In this document: in pieces, positions 33,361-63,727 of the stretch
Layout: every line of letters begins with the position of its first letter
How positions within the stretch are numbered: the first letter of the stretch is position 1
From: Streptomyces liliiviolaceus
GTDB taxonomy: Bacteria > Actinomycetota > Actinomycetes > Streptomycetales > Streptomycetaceae
Assembly: GCF_018070025.1 (NCBI RefSeq)
Contig: NZ_JAGPYQ010000001.1
Coordinates: 7,750,001-7,814,000 of the forward strand
Reading direction: 5' to 3'
Length of the DNA stretch: 64,000 bases
Made by a program: the position numbers and the translations under genes
Notes under the pieces: model-generated
What the model was told of the DNA's origin: nothing
The model's input: only the letters and a program-made list of their open reading frames with translations
The model's database searches: none

Positions 33361-34881
33361 TCAGTCCAGACCGCAACCACTGCCCGTGACGGCCGGCAGC
33401 GGCTCCGGGACGCCGATCTGCGGCAGCCCCAGCATGACGCCGGCCGGCTTCGCGGCCTCAGCGGTGTTGCGCTTCTCCCAGGCGTCCCCCGCGCGCGTGC
33501 GACGGACGTCCAGCGGGGCGCCCTCGGCGAGGAGGTGGTGCGGGGCGGCGTACGTGATCTCCACGGTGACGACGTCCCCGGGGCGGACCTCGGTGTCGGG
33601 CTTGGTGAAGTGCACCAGGCGGTTGTCGGGAGCGCGCCCGGAGAGGCGGTGCGTGGCGCCGTCCTTGCGGCCCTCGCCCTCGGCGACCATCAGCTCCAGG
33701 GTGCGGCCGACCTGCTTCTTGTTCTCGTCCCAGGAGATCTCCTCCTGGAGGGCCGACAGGCGCATGTAGCGCTCCTGCACGACCTCCTTGGGGATCTGCC
33801 CCTCCATCGTGGCCGCCGGGGTACCGGGACGCTTGGAGTACTGGAACGTGAACGCCTGCGCGAAGCGGGCCTCGCGGACCGCGTGGAGGGTCTGCTCGAA
33901 GTCCTCCTCGGTCTCGCCGGGGAAGCCCACGATGATGTCGGTGGTGATCGCGGCGTGCGGGATCGAGGCGCGCACCTTGTCGATGATCCCGAGGAACCGC
34001 TCCTGCCGGTACGAGCGGCGCATCGCCTTCAGGACGGTGTCCGAACCGGACTGCATCGGCATGTGGAGCTGCGGCATGACGTTCGGTGTCTCGGCCATCG
34101 CGGCGATGACGTCGTCCGTGAAGTCGCGCGGGTGCGGCGAGGTGAAGCGCACGCGCTCCAGGCCGTCGATCTTCCCGCAGGCCCGCAGGAGCTTGCTGAA
34201 GGCCTCACGGTCGCCGATGTCGGAGCCGTAGGCGTTGACGTTCTGGCCGAGCAGGGTGATCTCGGAGACGCCCTCGCCGACGAGGGCCTCGATCTCGGCG
34301 AGGATGTCGCCGGTCCTGCGGTCCTTCTCCTTGCCGCGCAGCGCCGGGACGATGCAGAAGGTGCACGTGTTGTTGCAGCCGACGGAGATGGACACCCAGG
34401 CCGCGTACGCGCTCTCGCGGCGGGTCGGCAGTGTCGACGGGAACGCCTCCAGCGACTCGGCGATCTCTACCTGCGCCTCTTCCTGGACGCGGGCGCGCTC
34501 CAGGAGGACGGGGAGTTTGCCGATGTTGTGCGTCCCGAAGACGACGTCCACCCAGGGCGCCCTCTTCACGATGGTGTCGCGGTCCTTCTGGGCGAGACAG
34601 CCGCCGACGGCGATCTGCATGCCGGGCCGCTTCGTCTTCATCGGCGCGAGCCTGCCGAGGTTCCCGTAGAGGCGGTTGTCGGCGTTCTCCCGCACCGCGC
34701 AGGTGTTGAAGACGACGACGTCGGCGTCACCGTCGGAGCCTTCGGGAGCACGTACGTAACCGGCACCCTCCAGCAGCCCGGACAGCCGCTCGGAGTCGTG
34801 GACGTTCATCTGACATCCGTAAGTACGCACTTCATACGTTCTGGTCAGGTCCACTGCCCGGCTCCGGTCACTGCTGCTCAT
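33361..34881 (-). CDS. miaB: tRNA-2-methylthio-N6-dimethylallyladenosine synthase
   Basis: 506 aa from the ATG at 34881; the longer frame to 34986 is not conserved. It is a radical-SAM methylthiotransferase acting on i6A37 made by MiaA. The N-terminal cluster cysteines are Cys23 (TYGCQMN), Cys61 (NTCAVRENA) and Cys95 (GGCLAQ); the radical SAM cluster is Cys169-Cys173-Cys176 in [14 protein letters not shown] domain follows at the C-terminus (about 385-455), then an extended tail ending GSGCGLD. Normal length is ~440-505 aa. Confidence 0.97.
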
Positions 34882-42032: not shown

Positions 42033-43628
42033 GTGGACCCGGTGATCATCGTCGGAGCGGGGCCCGTAGGACTCACGCTCGCCCTGGCGCTCGCGCGCCA
42101 GGAGGTCCCCTCGGTCGTCCTGGACGAGGGCCCCGGCAAGGACGAACAGCGGCTCGCGCGTACGGCCGTCCTGCGCGAGGACACGGCCGCGCTGATCGGG
42201 CGGCTGACGGGCTTCCCCGTCGCAGAGACGGGCTTCCGTTGGTCCGGATGGCGGTCGATGCGGCGCAAGCAGGTGATGCGGGAGATCACGTTCGGCGAGG
42301 ACGATCCCGCACTGCTGCACCTCCCCCAGCACGTGCTGACCGCCGCCCTGCGCGAGGCGATCGGGACCGAACGCCTGGTCAGGGTCGCCGCGGAGAGCCG
42401 TCTCGACTCTCTTGAGCAGGAGGCCGCAGGCGTCACCGCGCACACCCGGGGCCCCAAGGGCACCTGGTGGCGCGGCAGCTACCTGGTCGGCTGCGACGGA
42501 CCCCGCTCGACGGTCCGCAAGCTCCAGGACATCCGTTTCCCGGGACGTACGGCCGTGGAACGCCACGCCGTCGCCGCGCTGCGTACGGAACTCCCCTGGC
42601 CCGGCGAAGCGTTGCTGCACCGCACACCGCCGTGGCGGACCTCGGGCCCCCCGGTCTCCGAGGTGACCGCGCGCCCCCTCGCCGACGACGTGTGGCGCAT
42701 GGACTGGCTGCTGCCGCCCGGCAAGGACCTGGTCACACCGGACCTCCTGGTGGCACGCGTCCGGGAGACCCTCGCGGGCTGGAGCGGGGGCACCACCCCG
42801 CCGTACGAGCTGCTCGACACCGGGGTTCACACGGTCCACCACCGGCTGGCGCGGCGCTGGCGGGCGGGCCGGGTCTTCCTCGCCGGGGACTCGGCGCATC
42901 TGCTCGGCGCACTGGGCACCCAGGGCCTCGACGAGGGTCTGCGGGACGCCGACAACCTCGCGTGGAAGCTGGCCCTCGCCTGGCACCACGGCCCGCACGA
43001 GGCACTGCTCGACAGCTACCAGGTGGAACGGCGCGCGATCGTCGCCGCGCGCCTGCGCGCCGCCGACCAGGCACTGCCTCTGCTACGCGGCGGAGGACTG
43101 CGTTCCGCGGTGCCCGGGGCGGCCCGCGGCCATGACGCCCTCCTCACTGACGGGCACCTGGGGCGCGGACCACTGGGCGCGCCGGGGGCGCACACCTATT
43201 CACCGCTCGCACCTCCGCACGCCGAGTCCGCGGTCGAGGTCGACACGGCGCCGGGTGCCGCGATCTCCGATGTACGGGTGACCGCGGAGGACGGTTCGTC
43301 CGTGGCCTTGCGCGACCGGCTGGGCCGGGGCGCGCTGCTCGTGCTGCTGATCGCGCCGGGGACCGTGGTGTGGGACCGCAAGCACTGGGTGACGGCCGGG
43401 ATCATGCCGCGGCTCGCCGCCGCCGTGACCGCGCTGCCGCACCGGGCCGAGCTGCTGGTCGCCGAGAGCTACCCGGGCGCGGCCGCGCACACCGTGCTGC
43501 TGATCCGCCCGGACGGGCACCTGGTCACGGCGTTCGGCGGGGTCCGTCCCGCCGACCTGTACGAGGCCGCGGAGGCGGCTCTGGGCGGCCCCCGGACCAC
43601 GGCGGAGGCGCCCGCGAGCAAGTCCTGA
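42033..43628 (+). CDS. FAD-dependent aromatic monooxygenase-like protein
   Basis: 531 aa from a GTG at 42033 with CAGGGGG upstream. The Rossmann motif is IIVGAGPVGLTLALALAR (5-22), the NAD(P)H/FAD DG motif is GCDGPRSTVRK, and the FAD pyrophosphate/ribityl GD motif is VFLAGDSAHLLGALGTQGLDEGL. The C-terminal ~150 residues resemble the thioredoxin-like domain of phenol hydroxylase-type enzymes, without CxxC. Such enzymes hydroxylate aromatic or polyketide substrates, including rifamycins. The GD loop lacks the usual Pro (normally HxxxP), a small deviation. It stands alone after the glu operon, so the substrate is unknown. Confidence 0.85.
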   Translation: MDPVIIVGAGPVGLTLALALARQEVPSVVLDEGPGKDEQRLARTAVLREDTAALIGRLTGFPVAETGFRWSGWRSMRRKQVMREITFGEDDPALLHLPQHVLTAALREAIGTERLVRVAAESRLDSLEQEAAGVTAHTRGPKGTWWRGSYLVGCDGPRSTVRKLQDIRFPGRTAVERHAVAALRTELPWPGEALLHRTPPWRTSGPPVSEVTARPLADDVWRMDWLLPPGKDLVTPDLLVARVRETLAGWSGGTTPPYELLDTGVHTVHHRLARRWRAGRVFLAGDSAHLLGALGTQGLDEGLRDADNLAWKLALAWHHGPHEALLDSYQVERRAIVAARLRAADQALPLLRGGGLRSAVPGAARGHDALLTDGHLGRGPLGAPGAHTYSPLAPPHAESAVEVDTAPGAAISDVRVTAEDGSSVALRDRLGRGALLVLLIAPGTVVWDRKHWVTAGIMPRLAAAVTALPHRAELLVAESYPGAAAHTVLLIRPDGHLVTAFGGVRPADLYEAAEAALGGPRTTAEAPASKS

Positions 43629-43681
43629 AGGGCGCCTGTTTCCCCTGTGACAAGGGCCGCTGTCCAACCAATGACACTGAG

Positions 43682-43710
43682 TTGACCGGCCCGCACCGTC
43701 ATGGTGTACT
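43682..43710 (+). promoter_or_regulatory. Promoter of the Cys leader / cysteine dioxygenase transcript
   Basis: TTGACC (43682-43687) and TGTACT (43705-43710) are separated by 17 bp, with TGG extending the -10 element. Transcription should start at about 43716-43718, at the GTG of the small ORF, making it leaderless or nearly so. Confidence 0.65.
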
Positions 43711-43717
43711 CCGGATC

Positions 43718-43804
43718 GTGACCGACACCTGTGTGCGCCTGTGGCGGCGAGTCCATATGGACCTCGTCCGCTATGCGGGCTGCGTGTGTCGCCCGTCCTG
43801 CTGA
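43718..43804 (+). CDS. Putative cysteine-rich leader peptide (28 codons)
   Basis: GTG ACC GAC ACC opens a 28-residue ORF ending YAGCVCRPSC before TGA. The RLWRRVHMDLVRYAGC segment resembles the small actinobacterial leader peptides with an R-x-H-x-D-L-x-R core that precede sulfur-metabolism genes. Cysteines occupy positions 5, 22, 24 and 28, so translation would stall when Cys-tRNA is scarce. The start coincides with the inferred transcription start, and there is no ribosome-binding site, as in leaderless mycobacterial Cys attenuators. An internal ATG at 43757 would give a 15-residue version. It lies 82 bp before cysteine dioxygenase. Confidence 0.7.
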   Translation: MTDTCVRLWRRVHMDLVRYAGCVCRPSC

Positions 43805-43885
43805 ATTCGCATCCTCTGCAATCTCGCGCGTGAGGCCCCTCGGCTGCCGCGCGCACCCACGCGAACGCTCATCAGGACGGTACCC

Positions 43886-44437
43886 GTGTCTGTGTCACCT
43901 TCTGTTCCCGCTTCCGCCGGTTCCGCCGCCTCCACCGAGGCCCGTACTCCCACCCAGGCCGAACTGCTGGACTTCGTACGGCGCACGGCCGCCGACGCCG
44001 AACTGATCGCCTCCCTGCCGCTCGATCCCGAGGGACGTACGTGGGTACGCCTCGAAGGTCCTGGCGGCAGCGAGGCCTGGCTCATCGGCTGGCCGCCCGG
44101 TACGGGTACCGGCTGGCACGACCACGCCGAGTCGGTGGGCGCGTTCCTCACCGCGTCCGGCGAACTCAAGGAGAACTCGCTCGTCGCACGGCTGCCCACC
44201 GACGGCTGGAAGACCCTCGAACTCAACGAGGGAATCGACCGTGAGCGCCGCCTGTCGGCCGGCAAGGGCCGCTCGTTCGGCCAGCACCATGTGCACGAGG
44301 TGCTCAACGAGTCCACCGAGGAGCACGCCGTCTCCGTGCACGCGTACTACCCGCCGCTCCCCCGGATCAGCCGCTACAGCCGCACCGGCCAGATCCTGCG
44401 CCTGGAGCAGGTCGAGCGCCCCGAGGACTGGCAGTGA
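43886..44437 (+). CDS. Cysteine dioxygenase (cupin)
   Basis: 183 aa. The non-haem iron enzyme oxidises cysteine to cysteine sulfinate. Metal ligands are in WHDHAES (His78, His80) and QHHVHEVLN (His135 or His137), matching the 3-His site of bacterial CDOs. The first ~25 residues are Ser/Ala-rich and variable; in-frame GTGs at 43886 and 43892 both could start it. It overlaps the rhodanese gene by 4 bp. The upstream leader peptide suggests control by cysteine level. Confidence 0.9.
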   Translation: MSVSPSVPASAGSAASTEARTPTQAELLDFVRRTAADAELIASLPLDPEGRTWVRLEGPGGSEAWLIGWPPGTGTGWHDHAESVGAFLTASGELKENSLVARLPTDGWKTLELNEGIDRERRLSAGKGRSFGQHHVHEVLNESTEEHAVSVHAYYPPLPRISRYSRTGQILRLEQVERPEDWQ

Positions 44438-44844
44438 CGGCCGAACTCCCCGTGGGGATCGACGAGTTGCTGGAGCGGGTCCGCGCGGACCTGGCCCGGG
44501 TCGAGGCGGAGGCCGCCCACGACGCGGCACAGGCGGGCGACGCCCTGCTCGTCGACATCCGGTACGCGGCACTGCGTGAGCGCGACGGCCTGATCCCTGG
44601 CGCGCTCGTCGTCGAGCGCAACGAACTGGAGTGGCGGCTCGACCCGCAGGGCAGCCATCGCGCGCCCGAGGCCACGAGTCACGACCTGCGCGTCGTGATC
44701 GTCTGCAACGAGGGCTACGCGTCGAGCCTCGCCGCCGTCTCTCTGCGGCAGCTGGGACTGCACCGGGCCACGGACCTGGTGGGAGGCTTCCAGGCCTGGC
44801 GAACGGCGGGCCTGCCGGTGGAAACGACTACGGCTACGGCCTAG
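44434..44844 (+). CDS. Rhodanese-like sulfurtransferase
   Basis: 136 aa with one rhodanese domain: VDIRYAALRERDGLIPGALVV and the active-site loop VCNEGYASSLAAVSL with Cys91 as sulfur carrier, ending GGFQAWRTAGLPV. The loop CNEGYASS is not the CRxGxR type of classical thiosulfate sulfurtransferases. Coupling to cysteine dioxygenase by a GTGA overlap suggests handling of sulfur released from cysteine sulfinate or persulfides. Confidence 0.9.
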   Translation: MTAELPVGIDELLERVRADLARVEAEAAHDAAQAGDALLVDIRYAALRERDGLIPGALVVERNELEWRLDPQGSHRAPEATSHDLRVVIVCNEGYASSLAAVSLRQLGLHRATDLVGGFQAWRTAGLPVETTTATA

Positions 44845-44868
44845 GAGACATCGGCCTCGGCCTACGGC

Positions 44869-44902
44869 ACCGTCTGTGCACAGGTATCTGCACACAGACG
44901 GT
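44869..44902 (+). terminator. Terminator after the cysteine dioxygenase operon
   Basis: ACCGTCTGTG (44869-44878) pairs perfectly with CACAGACGGT (44893-44902) around a 14-nt loop, 25 bp after the rhodanese stop. Confidence 0.7.
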
Positions 44903-45056
44903 CACCCAGCTTCCTGAGGGGGGGGGACACCCACCCCCACCTCACGCTCCGGGGCCGGGCCCGAGCGCGATGGGCGCCCCCGCGCGTCCACCGTGCCCGG
45001 ACCCTGCCTCGGAATCGCAGGGACCGAAATCCCCCTGGTGAAGCCTCTCGGCTCCT

Positions 45057-62249: not shown

Positions 62250-63727
62250 CTGGCCGCCTCCTCAGTACACACGAGCGAGCCCGGGAGCGGCTCGGCCACC
62301 AGGTCGACACCTTCCGTACCGACCACCTTCGCCTCGACCATACGGCCGACGGTCAGTCCTTCGCCGCTCGTGAACACCACCTGGCCGTCGGTCTCGGGCG
62401 CCTGGTGCGCGGCGCGCCCGTACGCCGGCTCGCCCTCCGCGGCCGATCCGAGGGACTCGACCAGCACCTGGAGGGTCTCGCCGACGCGCTCCTCCGCCCG
62501 CTGGGAGACGAGCTCCTCGGCGAGCCGGGACACGCGCGCGAGGCGCTCGGCGACGACGTCCTCGTCCAGCTTGTTCTCGTACGTGGCGGCCTCGGTGCCG
62601 TCCTCGTCGGAGTAGCCGAAGACACCGATGGCGTCCAGGCGCGCGGCGGTCAGGAAGCGCTCCAGCTCCGCCAGGTCGTCCGCGGTCTCGCCGGGGAAGC
62701 CCACGATGAAGTTCGACCGCACGCCGGCCTGCGGGGCCTTGGAGCGGATCGTGTCGAGGAGCCCCAGGAACTGCTCGGTGTTCCCGAAGCGCCGCATCGC
62801 GCGCAGCACCCCGGGGGCGGAGTGCTGGAAGGACAGGTCGAAGTAGGGGGCGACGTTCGGCGTGGAGGTCAGTACGTCGATGAGCCCGGGGCGCATCTCG
62901 GCGGGCTGCAGGTAGCTGACCCGCACCCGCTCGATGCCCTCGACCCCGGCCAGTTCGGGCAGCAGTGTCTCCAGGAGGCGGATGTCGCCCAGGTCCTTGC
63001 CGTACGACGTGTTGTTCTCGGAGACCAGCATGACCTCCTTCACGCCCTGCTCGGCGAGCCAGCGCGTCTCGCCCAGGACATCGCTGGGGCGGCGCGAGAT
63101 GAAGGAGCCGCGGAAGGACGGGATGGCGCAGAAGGAGCAGCGCCGGTCGCAGCCGGAGGCGAGCTTCACGGAGGCCACCGGTGAGCCGTCGAGCCGCCGG
63201 CGCAGGGGCGCGCGGGGGCCCGATTCGGGGGCGAGTCCTTCGGGGAGGTCGGCGGGCCCGTGTCCCGGAAGGGCGACCTCCGCTCCGGCGTCCTGGCGCT
63301 CGGCGGGGCTGATCGGCAGCAGCTTGCGCCGGTCGCGCGGGGTGTGGGCGGCGTGGATCCCGCCGTTCAGGATGGTCTGGAGCCGGTCGGAGATGTCGGC
63401 GTAGTCGTCGAAGCCGAGTACGCCGTCGGCCTCGGGCAGGGCCTCGGCCAGTTCCTTGCCGTACCGCTCGGCCATGCAGCCGACGGCGACGACCGCCTGG
63501 GTTCTGCCGTGCCCCTTGAGGTCATTGGCTTCCAGGAGGGCGTCGACGGAGTCCTTCTTGGCGGCTTCGACGAAGCCACAGGTGTTGACGACGGCGACGT
63601 CCGCGTTCTCGGCGTCCTCCACGAGGTGCCAGCCGTCCGCCTCCAAGCGGCCTGCGAGCTCCTCCGAGTCCACCTCGTTACGGGCGCAGCCAAGGGTGAC
63701 GAGTGCGACGGTACGGCGTTCAGGCAT
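62246..63727 (-). CDS. rimO: Ribosomal protein S12 methylthiotransferase
   Basis: 493 aa from the ATG at 63727 (the longer frame to 63790 is not conserved). A radical-SAM enzyme that methylthiolates an aspartate of ribosomal protein S12. UPF0004 domain cysteines 14 (TLGCARN), 50 (NTCGF) and 84 (VGCMAE); radical [11 protein letters not shown] (193, 197, 200). C-terminal TRAM domain. The insertion at about 140-180, before the radical SAM core, is Pro/Ala-rich. First gene of rimO-pgsA-cinA. Confidence 0.96.

Follow-up and report, generated by a model that had tools for sequence, protein, structure and literature searches.

Mycobacterial attenuators built on leaderless small open reading frames (sORFs) with polycysteine stretches were reportedly described by Canestrari et al. 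in 2020; in these, an RNA structure is said to sequester the downstream ribosome-binding site, and a stalled ribosome to block that structure. The TnaC leader peptide, by comparison, is of the arrest type and responds to excess free tryptophan. Passages of three papers cite the mycobacterial polycysteine attenuators (PMC9094748, PMC9031893, PMC13236596). For the LEU element of actinobacterial leuA, the relevant part of one paper proposes that leader codons pair with the downstream Shine-Dalgarno (SD) sequence, and cites evidence that changed Leu codons leave regulation unaffected (PMC1262725).

We analysed a 64,000-nt stretch of contig NZ_JAGPYQ010000001.1 of Streptomyces liliiviolaceus (hereafter, the window), in which a cysteine-codon leader precedes a gene for cysteine dioxygenase (cdo). 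The occurrence of this leader before cdo is real and beyond chance. Like the mycobacterial attenuators, it is a short ORF, here inferred to be leaderless, with Cys codons near its stop, and it is predicted to act by translational attenuation with the same sign. It is unusual among such elements in that its target is catabolic, degrading cysteine, in that the final codons of the leader itself make up the anti-SD sequence, and in that one UGU codon is fixed; furthermore, unlike the polycysteine type, it has no run of Cys codons, these being spaced instead. So far as computation and inference go, the leader works like the mycobacterial Cys attenuators, and we do not file it as a polycysteine member. 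With the LEU element it shares a proposed pairing between leader-peptide codons and the SD of the downstream gene, and it differs from it in that the LEU element carries Leu codons and a pseudoknot. Like TnaC, it is a leader peptide that precedes an operon for breaking down one of its own amino acids; in TnaC, the response is to excess free tryptophan.

Leader, promoter and operon

We identified the following features at the 5' end of the locus and in the operon (positions are those of the window).

43682..43710, + strand: promoter-like sequence in the window, TTGACC (43682-43687), 17 nt, TGTACT (43705-43710)
43717..43718, + strand: putative transcription start, at or beside the leader GTG, placed from a distance of 6-7 nt
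43718..43804, + strand: 28-codon Cys leader ORF of the NF042934 family, from its translation and a profile match
43737..43780, + strand: hairpin within the leader ORF, inner stem GUCC AUAU GGAC, from RNA folding
43886..44437, + strand: cdo, cysteine dioxygenase type I (PF05995 CDO_I, 165 bits)
44434..44844, + strand: gene for a rhodanese-domain protein (PF00581), with a 4-nt overlap with the end of cdo

The initial annotation had proposed a TTGACC-17-TGTACT promoter and a GTG-started 28-codon leader, and both are present as described, whereas the gap from the leader stop to the cdo GTG (43886), given there as 82 bp, is 81 bp. The assignment of the downstream gene to cysteine dioxygenase is borne out by the PF05995 match, and the cdo product also matches solved cysteine dioxygenases (8qfl_A, E 7e-14). 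An enzyme of the 3-mercaptopropionate type was considered as an alternative identity on the basis of motifs. The leader translates as VTDTCVRLWRRVHMDLVRYAGCVCRPSC followed by the stop codon, with Cys residues spaced at positions 22, 24 and 28 (CVCRPSC).

The leader GTG (43718-43720) lies 7 nt 3' of TGTACT, and the mean distance from the -10 element to the transcription start in S. lividans is given as 6.3 nt in the corresponding part of a transcription start site study, whose passage on leader peptides gives eight, none of them for cdo (PMC8079986). In 135 of 138 cdo leaders, TTGA is located upstream of the start codon, at a distance of 36 nt in 104 loci and of 37 nt in 31; the exceptions are L154 and L157, which have no TTGA, and L042, which has no clear start. 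Likewise, TTGA lies 23 nt (63 rows) or 24 nt (17 rows) 5' of the -10 T in all 80 aligned rows, L042 being left out. The constant distance between TTGA and the start codon fits the need of a leaderless start, and thus we infer that the transcript is leaderless or nearly so and starts at the leader GTG. A standard sigma-70 scan of positions 43600-45000 reported no promoter; that scan demands A at the second -10 position, which is G here. The curated Rfam models gave no match up to an E value of 5 in 43600-44000.

A block of the form GTCC-N6-TGAC-N3-GAG at 43662-43681 adjoins the -35 box and is kept in relatives; it may represent an operator. Within the ORF, the 43737-43780 hairpin is a strong one; at the five loci compared, between 8 and 78 synonymous shuffles in 1000 attained its energy. 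The rare codon AGG occupies position 11, in the stem of this hairpin, in 72 of the 80 rows, and the window has CGA instead. In the relatives with AGG at codon 11, the ORF hairpin would mask a GGAGG located 5' of an in-frame ATG or CTG.

Conservation and distribution of the leader

Conservation was assessed on 80 named cdo loci, the best 80 of 437 and all but one of them (79) titled Streptomyces. The whole leader is located 5' of cdo in 79 of these 80, the remaining locus (L042) carrying its 3' half only, and the pairing of leader and cdo is therefore not due to chance. In two of the leaders (L021 and L052), Ile takes the place of Val. In a class-wide sample, the leader was found at the locus itself and at 21 of 21 other fetched cdo orthologues of the same genus (at least 70% identity). 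The leader pattern was not found at a cdo fragment (L135), at the second cdo of the same genome (L112) or at seven distant actinobacterial cysteine dioxygenases (L136-L142); it was also unmatched in 3 of the 39 cdo regions from the family (L156, L163 and L164), in genomes that the leader search did match.

Across 297 genomes of the family, the leader was matched in 188 (E 0.01) and cdo in 197 (E 1e-30). Co-occurrence was counted by hand, and weak leader matches in these counts may be sister leaders: a leader match anywhere in the genome accompanied cdo in 134 of 136 cdo-bearing genomes in the genus and in 51 of 61 in other genera of the family, and was present in 3 of the 100 genomes without a cdo match at E 1e-30. 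Adjacency of leader and cdo was read directly in the fetched loci, 138 in total, some of which are probably one genome met twice. One of the genomes with no cdo match (G519, locus L182) has the leader followed by what appears, by eye, to be the end of a rhodanese frame, and this arrangement looks like the remnant of an operon that lost cdo.

Leader family and the fixed UGU codon

Against NF042934 ('cis_reg_atten'), the leader ORF scores 37.2 bits, over the cut-off of 27, and is the best-scoring match of the genome to this model, which is descriptive and comes without a target, codon or mechanism. Against NF042933, the model of the Ms5788A Cys-rich leader, it scores 17.9 bits, below the cut-off of 45. 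These scores agree with the earlier proposal of a regulatory, near-leaderless Cys-codon leader akin to the mycobacterial kind. Within the class, 57 out of 79 genomes have NF042934 matches. The polycysteine leaders L183 and L185 fall into the same HMM family, with which they share both the fixed TGT codon and the motif VDLxR; the gene 3' of L183 resembles, by eye, the sulphurtransferase that follows another leader, L089.

One codon of the leader stands out.

43787..43789, + strand: Cys24 UGU, the proposed sensor codon (TGT in 138 of 138 cdo leaders)

The neighbouring Cys22 is TGC in 131 of the 138 cdo leaders, and Cys28 is replaced in some relatives. For a comparison across the family, we used 43 leaders, comprising 13 from this genome and 30 from the fetched best loci, one of which (L192) is misregistered. 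The equivalent of Cys24 is TGT in all 42 family leaders in register, and a Cys codon seven positions before the fixed TGT is TGC in 23 of 24, while TGT makes up 19.5% of the 133 Cys codons in the 33 gene-like frames of the window. UGU is thus fixed in all 42 while neighbouring codons drift, a pattern left unexplained by codon hunger alone. In addition, the motif RxHVDLxRV precedes the Cys codons across leaders of unrelated genes, with its residues kept and its codons varying. Both the decoding of a single UGU and the nascent peptide appear, from these comparisons, to be under selection. Among the literature matches listed, none dealt with a cdo leader and none with the UGU codon in such leaders.

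A further arrangement was observed in another family of the class (G064), where a Cys leader (L210) lies approximately 315 nt from a cdo on the opposite strand and points at a gene that resembles, by eye, a flavin reductase.

Predicted sequestration of the cdo Shine-Dalgarno region

The elements of the predicted sequestering fold lie between the end of the leader and the start of cdo.

43793..43800, + strand: anti-SD CCGTCCTG, spanning codons 26-27 plus two bases of codon 28, exact complement of CAGGACGG
43802..43810, + strand: stop codon plus TTCGC, which would lengthen the sequestering helix, from clade covariation
43825..43853, + strand: spacer hairpin CGCGC..GAGG/CCTC..GCGCG, from the minimum free energy (MFE) structure of the window
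43861..43871, + strand: pre-SD segment GCGAACGCTCA, predicted partner of the stop plus TTCGC, from folding and covariation
43873..43880, + strand: cdo Shine-Dalgarno region CAGGACGG, read in the window sequence and near-invariant in relatives

RNA folding was done at the 125 loci with GGACGG after the leader, on a segment that begins with the leader and ends 45 nt beyond the first base of the SD; in two of these loci (L143 and L152), the GGACGG in question is a sequence other than the SD. The SD heptamer was paired with a mean probability of 0.96 across the 125 loci, and with the last 15 nt of the leader plus the stop at 0.85, compared with 0.82 and 0.08, respectively, for dinucleotide-shuffled leaders. 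Pairing between the leader end and the SD exceeded 0.5 in 113 of the 125 loci and was below 0.3 in 10, L143 and L152 among them. In the window, the probability of this pairing is 0.96, and the GCGCG/CGCGC stem enclosing GAGG/CCTC, which the initial annotation had pointed out in the spacer, is present in the MFE structure, at the apex of the fold that sequesters the SD.

To represent a translating ribosome, positions -13 to +15 relative to the P site were masked. The probability of an unpaired SD was 0.04 in the free RNA, stayed at 0.04-0.07 for A-site positions from codon 4 to codon 21, and rose to 0.12 at codon 22, 0.23 at codon 24 and 0.23-0.27 from codon 25 to the stop. In energy terms, the SD heptamer needed 11.2 kcal/mol to open in the free RNA, and 9.7, 10.3, 9.4, 6.5 and 5.7 kcal/mol with the ribosome at codons 16, 20, 22 and 24 and at the stop, respectively; for the 17-nt stretch that runs from the SD to the start codon, the corresponding values were 14.3, 13.5, 13.7, 12.9, 10.1 and 9.8 kcal/mol. 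With L143 and L152 out, the opening cost at codon 24 was more than 1 kcal/mol below that of the free RNA in 106 of 123 loci for the SD and in 104 of 123 for the 17 nt. The drop for the 17 nt at codon 24 amounts to 4.2 kcal/mol, with about 10 kcal/mol still needed.

Under the mask, the SD of the shuffled leaders was unpaired at 0.19, against 0.23 for the real ones; given that the shuffles are 82% paired when free, it is the closed state that is special, and the open state is ordinary. Mean unpairedness over the 17 nt showed no rise when the upstream leader was left free (0.30 unmasked versus 0.29-0.31 from codon 22 to the stop). When the mask also took in the upstream leader, the mean increased from 0.28 to approximately 0.39, and in the window itself it dropped from approximately 0.55 to 0.40. 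When four footprint edges were compared on half of the loci (63), codon 24 showed its effect with every one of them (0.14-0.23), and codon 22 only with the two larger footprints. In these models, a stall at Cys22, the first of the C-terminal Cys codons, thus has little effect, and one that depends on the footprint. Taken as a whole, the computations indicate that the switch is likely translational, with the cdo SD sequestered by the leader's own last codons.

For pair counts, 10 of the 138 leaders were set aside as having no GGACGG and 2 as being of other length; 118 were distinct, and after removal of L143, L152 and L042, 115 were used. The octamer helix was 95.4% paired in these 115 rows, against 95.1% in shuffles, with 2 double-change cells; the anti-SD octamer is near invariant, so that its own covariation is weak and uninformative. 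The flanking helix is formed by TGAATTCGC or similar with GCGAA in one clade and mostly by TGATC with GATCA in the other, to which L004 and L019 were assigned by a crude rule. Exchanging the partners between clades gave helix energies of -5.8 and -4.7 kcal/mol, versus -7.2 and -7.1 for the native combinations, and the native mean was reached by none of 5000 permutations, in which kinship is ignored. Judged from the aligned sequences, the flanking helix covaries between the clades.

Proposed mechanism

On balance, we favour the reading that the locus is a cysteine-responsive translational attenuator, in which cdo would be switched on when charged tRNA-Cys is short. A leaderless transcript would start at the leader GTG. 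In the free RNA, the last leader codons CCGUCCUG, the stop and the next bases are computed to pair with the segment that holds the SD, and as long as this lock is closed, cdo and the overlapping rhodanese gene would be little translated. When charged tRNA-Cys runs short, the ribosome would wait at UGC22 or UGU24; a ribosome at UGU24 would cover the anti-SD, which, by our computations, makes the SD and the start much cheaper to open. With ample cysteine, the ribosome would complete the leader and depart, and the lock would reclose. The operon would join a Cys-starvation set of sulphur-supply genes with sister leaders. The model gives clear predictions for laboratory Streptomyces of what should follow when either the codon UGU24 or the helix between codons 26-28 and the SD is changed.

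The genus g120 has kept the leader and UGU24; however, the pairing of leader end and SD is missing in 11 of 11 loci there, and opening is inconsistent. These loci would suit a different scheme, in our estimation an unlikely one, in which the position of the ribosome decides between termination (intrinsic or Rho-dependent) and read-through, and the SD pairing is incidental. Two folds examined for the genus bear on it unequally: in L155, the Cys codons are enclosed in a GC-rich hairpin formed by the leader end, and in L147 they are not. Rho has been suggested for mycobacterial cys leaders in a passage of the LEU element paper (PMC1262725), and the change reported for the cdo homologue SCO5772, in the relevant part of its source, is at the mRNA level (PMC4991794). 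Against this scheme, no U-tract (intrinsic) terminator was found in positions 43600-45000, and a pairing of leader end and SD is predicted across most loci and flanked by a helix covarying between clades. Translational attenuation remains our preferred reading.

Sister leaders and the sign of regulation

Ten sister leaders of this genome were examined (L086, L087 and L091 were left out), six of which score over the NF042934 cut-off and four (L090, L092, L095 and L096) under it. The best NCBIfam matches of the genes that follow them are a MoaD-like carrier, two monooxygenases of the NtaA/DmoA type, SfnG, a nitrite/sulphite reductase, an ABC ATPase of the aliphatic-sulphonate type, a sulphurtransferase, an OAH/OAS sulphhydrylase, a sugar-binding protein and a ROK-type regulator; the NCBIfam cut-off is passed only by SfnG and the sulphhydrylase. 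By our reading of these best matches, up to 8 of the 10 targets fit sulphur supply. A cysteine-degrading operon would thus be under a sensor that elsewhere in the genome sits mostly on sulphur-supply-like genes. A lock of the SD by the leader end was predicted for 2 of the 10, L090 (0.89) and L084 (0.65), with start sites chosen by hand, and SD locking was rejected as a general trait of the sister leaders.

SCO3035 is taken here to be a second cysteine dioxygenase. For the expression data, SCO5772 of S. coelicolor and cdo1 and cdo2 of Streptomyces SCUT-3 (CP046907) enter the comparison as cdo homologues, with or without a leader. In the part of the S. coelicolor study concerned, SCO5772 was up 8.0-fold and SCO3035 6.5-fold after H2O2, ssuABC, cysNDCH, cysI, cysA and cysM were induced along with SCO5772, and the induction of SCO5772 and SCO3035 was missing in an hbpS-senS-senR mutant (PMC4991794). 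A passage on S. venezuelae has SCO5772 as the homologue of a putative cysteine dioxygenase gene that is GlnR-dependent and more than 5-fold up on nitrogen starvation (PMC3087709), and an excerpt on SCUT-3 gives a 50-fold rise of cdo1 and an 8-fold rise of cdo2 on feather versus LB (PMC7181669).

Since, in silico, the SD is freed once the ribosome has reached Cys24, and only slightly when it sits at Cys22, scarce cysteinyl-tRNA should, on the model, turn cdo on. The initial annotation had held that the logic must be opposite to that of the mycobacterial leaders, with expression at plentiful cysteine, and this is not supported by a sequestration that is computed to be relieved at Cys24, which predicts expression when cysteinyl-tRNA is scarce. 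Physiology nevertheless argues for the opposite sign, as breakdown of cysteine during a shortage makes little metabolic sense.

The catabolic logic would be satisfied by an arrest peptide, that is, a leader that stalls at or near its end at plentiful cysteine or a derived signal, as TnaC does with tryptophan, so that the anti-SD stays covered and cdo is on. The RxHVDLxRV residues, kept despite codon drift, point to a role of the peptide and not of the RNA alone, the computations show much the same release of the SD for every ribosome position between codon 24 and the stop, and the two SCUT-3 genes, either of which may bear a leader, rise on feather (PMC7181669). We nonetheless regard an arrest peptide as quite unlikely: sister leaders with the same motif precede sulphur-supply-like genes, for which expression at high cysteine would be perverse, the fixed UGU points to Cys decoding as the sensed step, and SCO5772 is, in the passage concerned, co-induced with cysteine synthesis under H2O2 (PMC4991794).

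A more specific and rather doubtful possibility is that NF042934 represents a dedicated sensor of cysteine decoding instead of a plain counter of hungry codons, in which the arrest-prone RxHVDLxRV would hold the ribosome on a wobble-read UGU, the pause would report the charging or a sulphur-dependent modification of tRNA-Cys, and cdo would be wired into this response. If so, cdo would be made under an apparent cysteine shortage, e.g. during oxidative stress, and the aim would be the removal of sulphite or thiols and not the supply of cysteine. The locus makes the role of a bacterial cysteine dioxygenase, waste disposal versus stress response, testable. That the small ORF simply encodes a functional peptide and stands before cdo for merely operonic reasons is, despite its high sequence conservation, highly improbable, given that the motif recurs before several unrelated genes, that the UGU codon is fixed and that the last codons are exactly complementary to the SD.

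Additionally, the window contains miaB (33526-34836, over the cut-off) approximately 9 kb from the locus, which carries no weight here, and a second methylthiotransferase-like match at 62300-63703.
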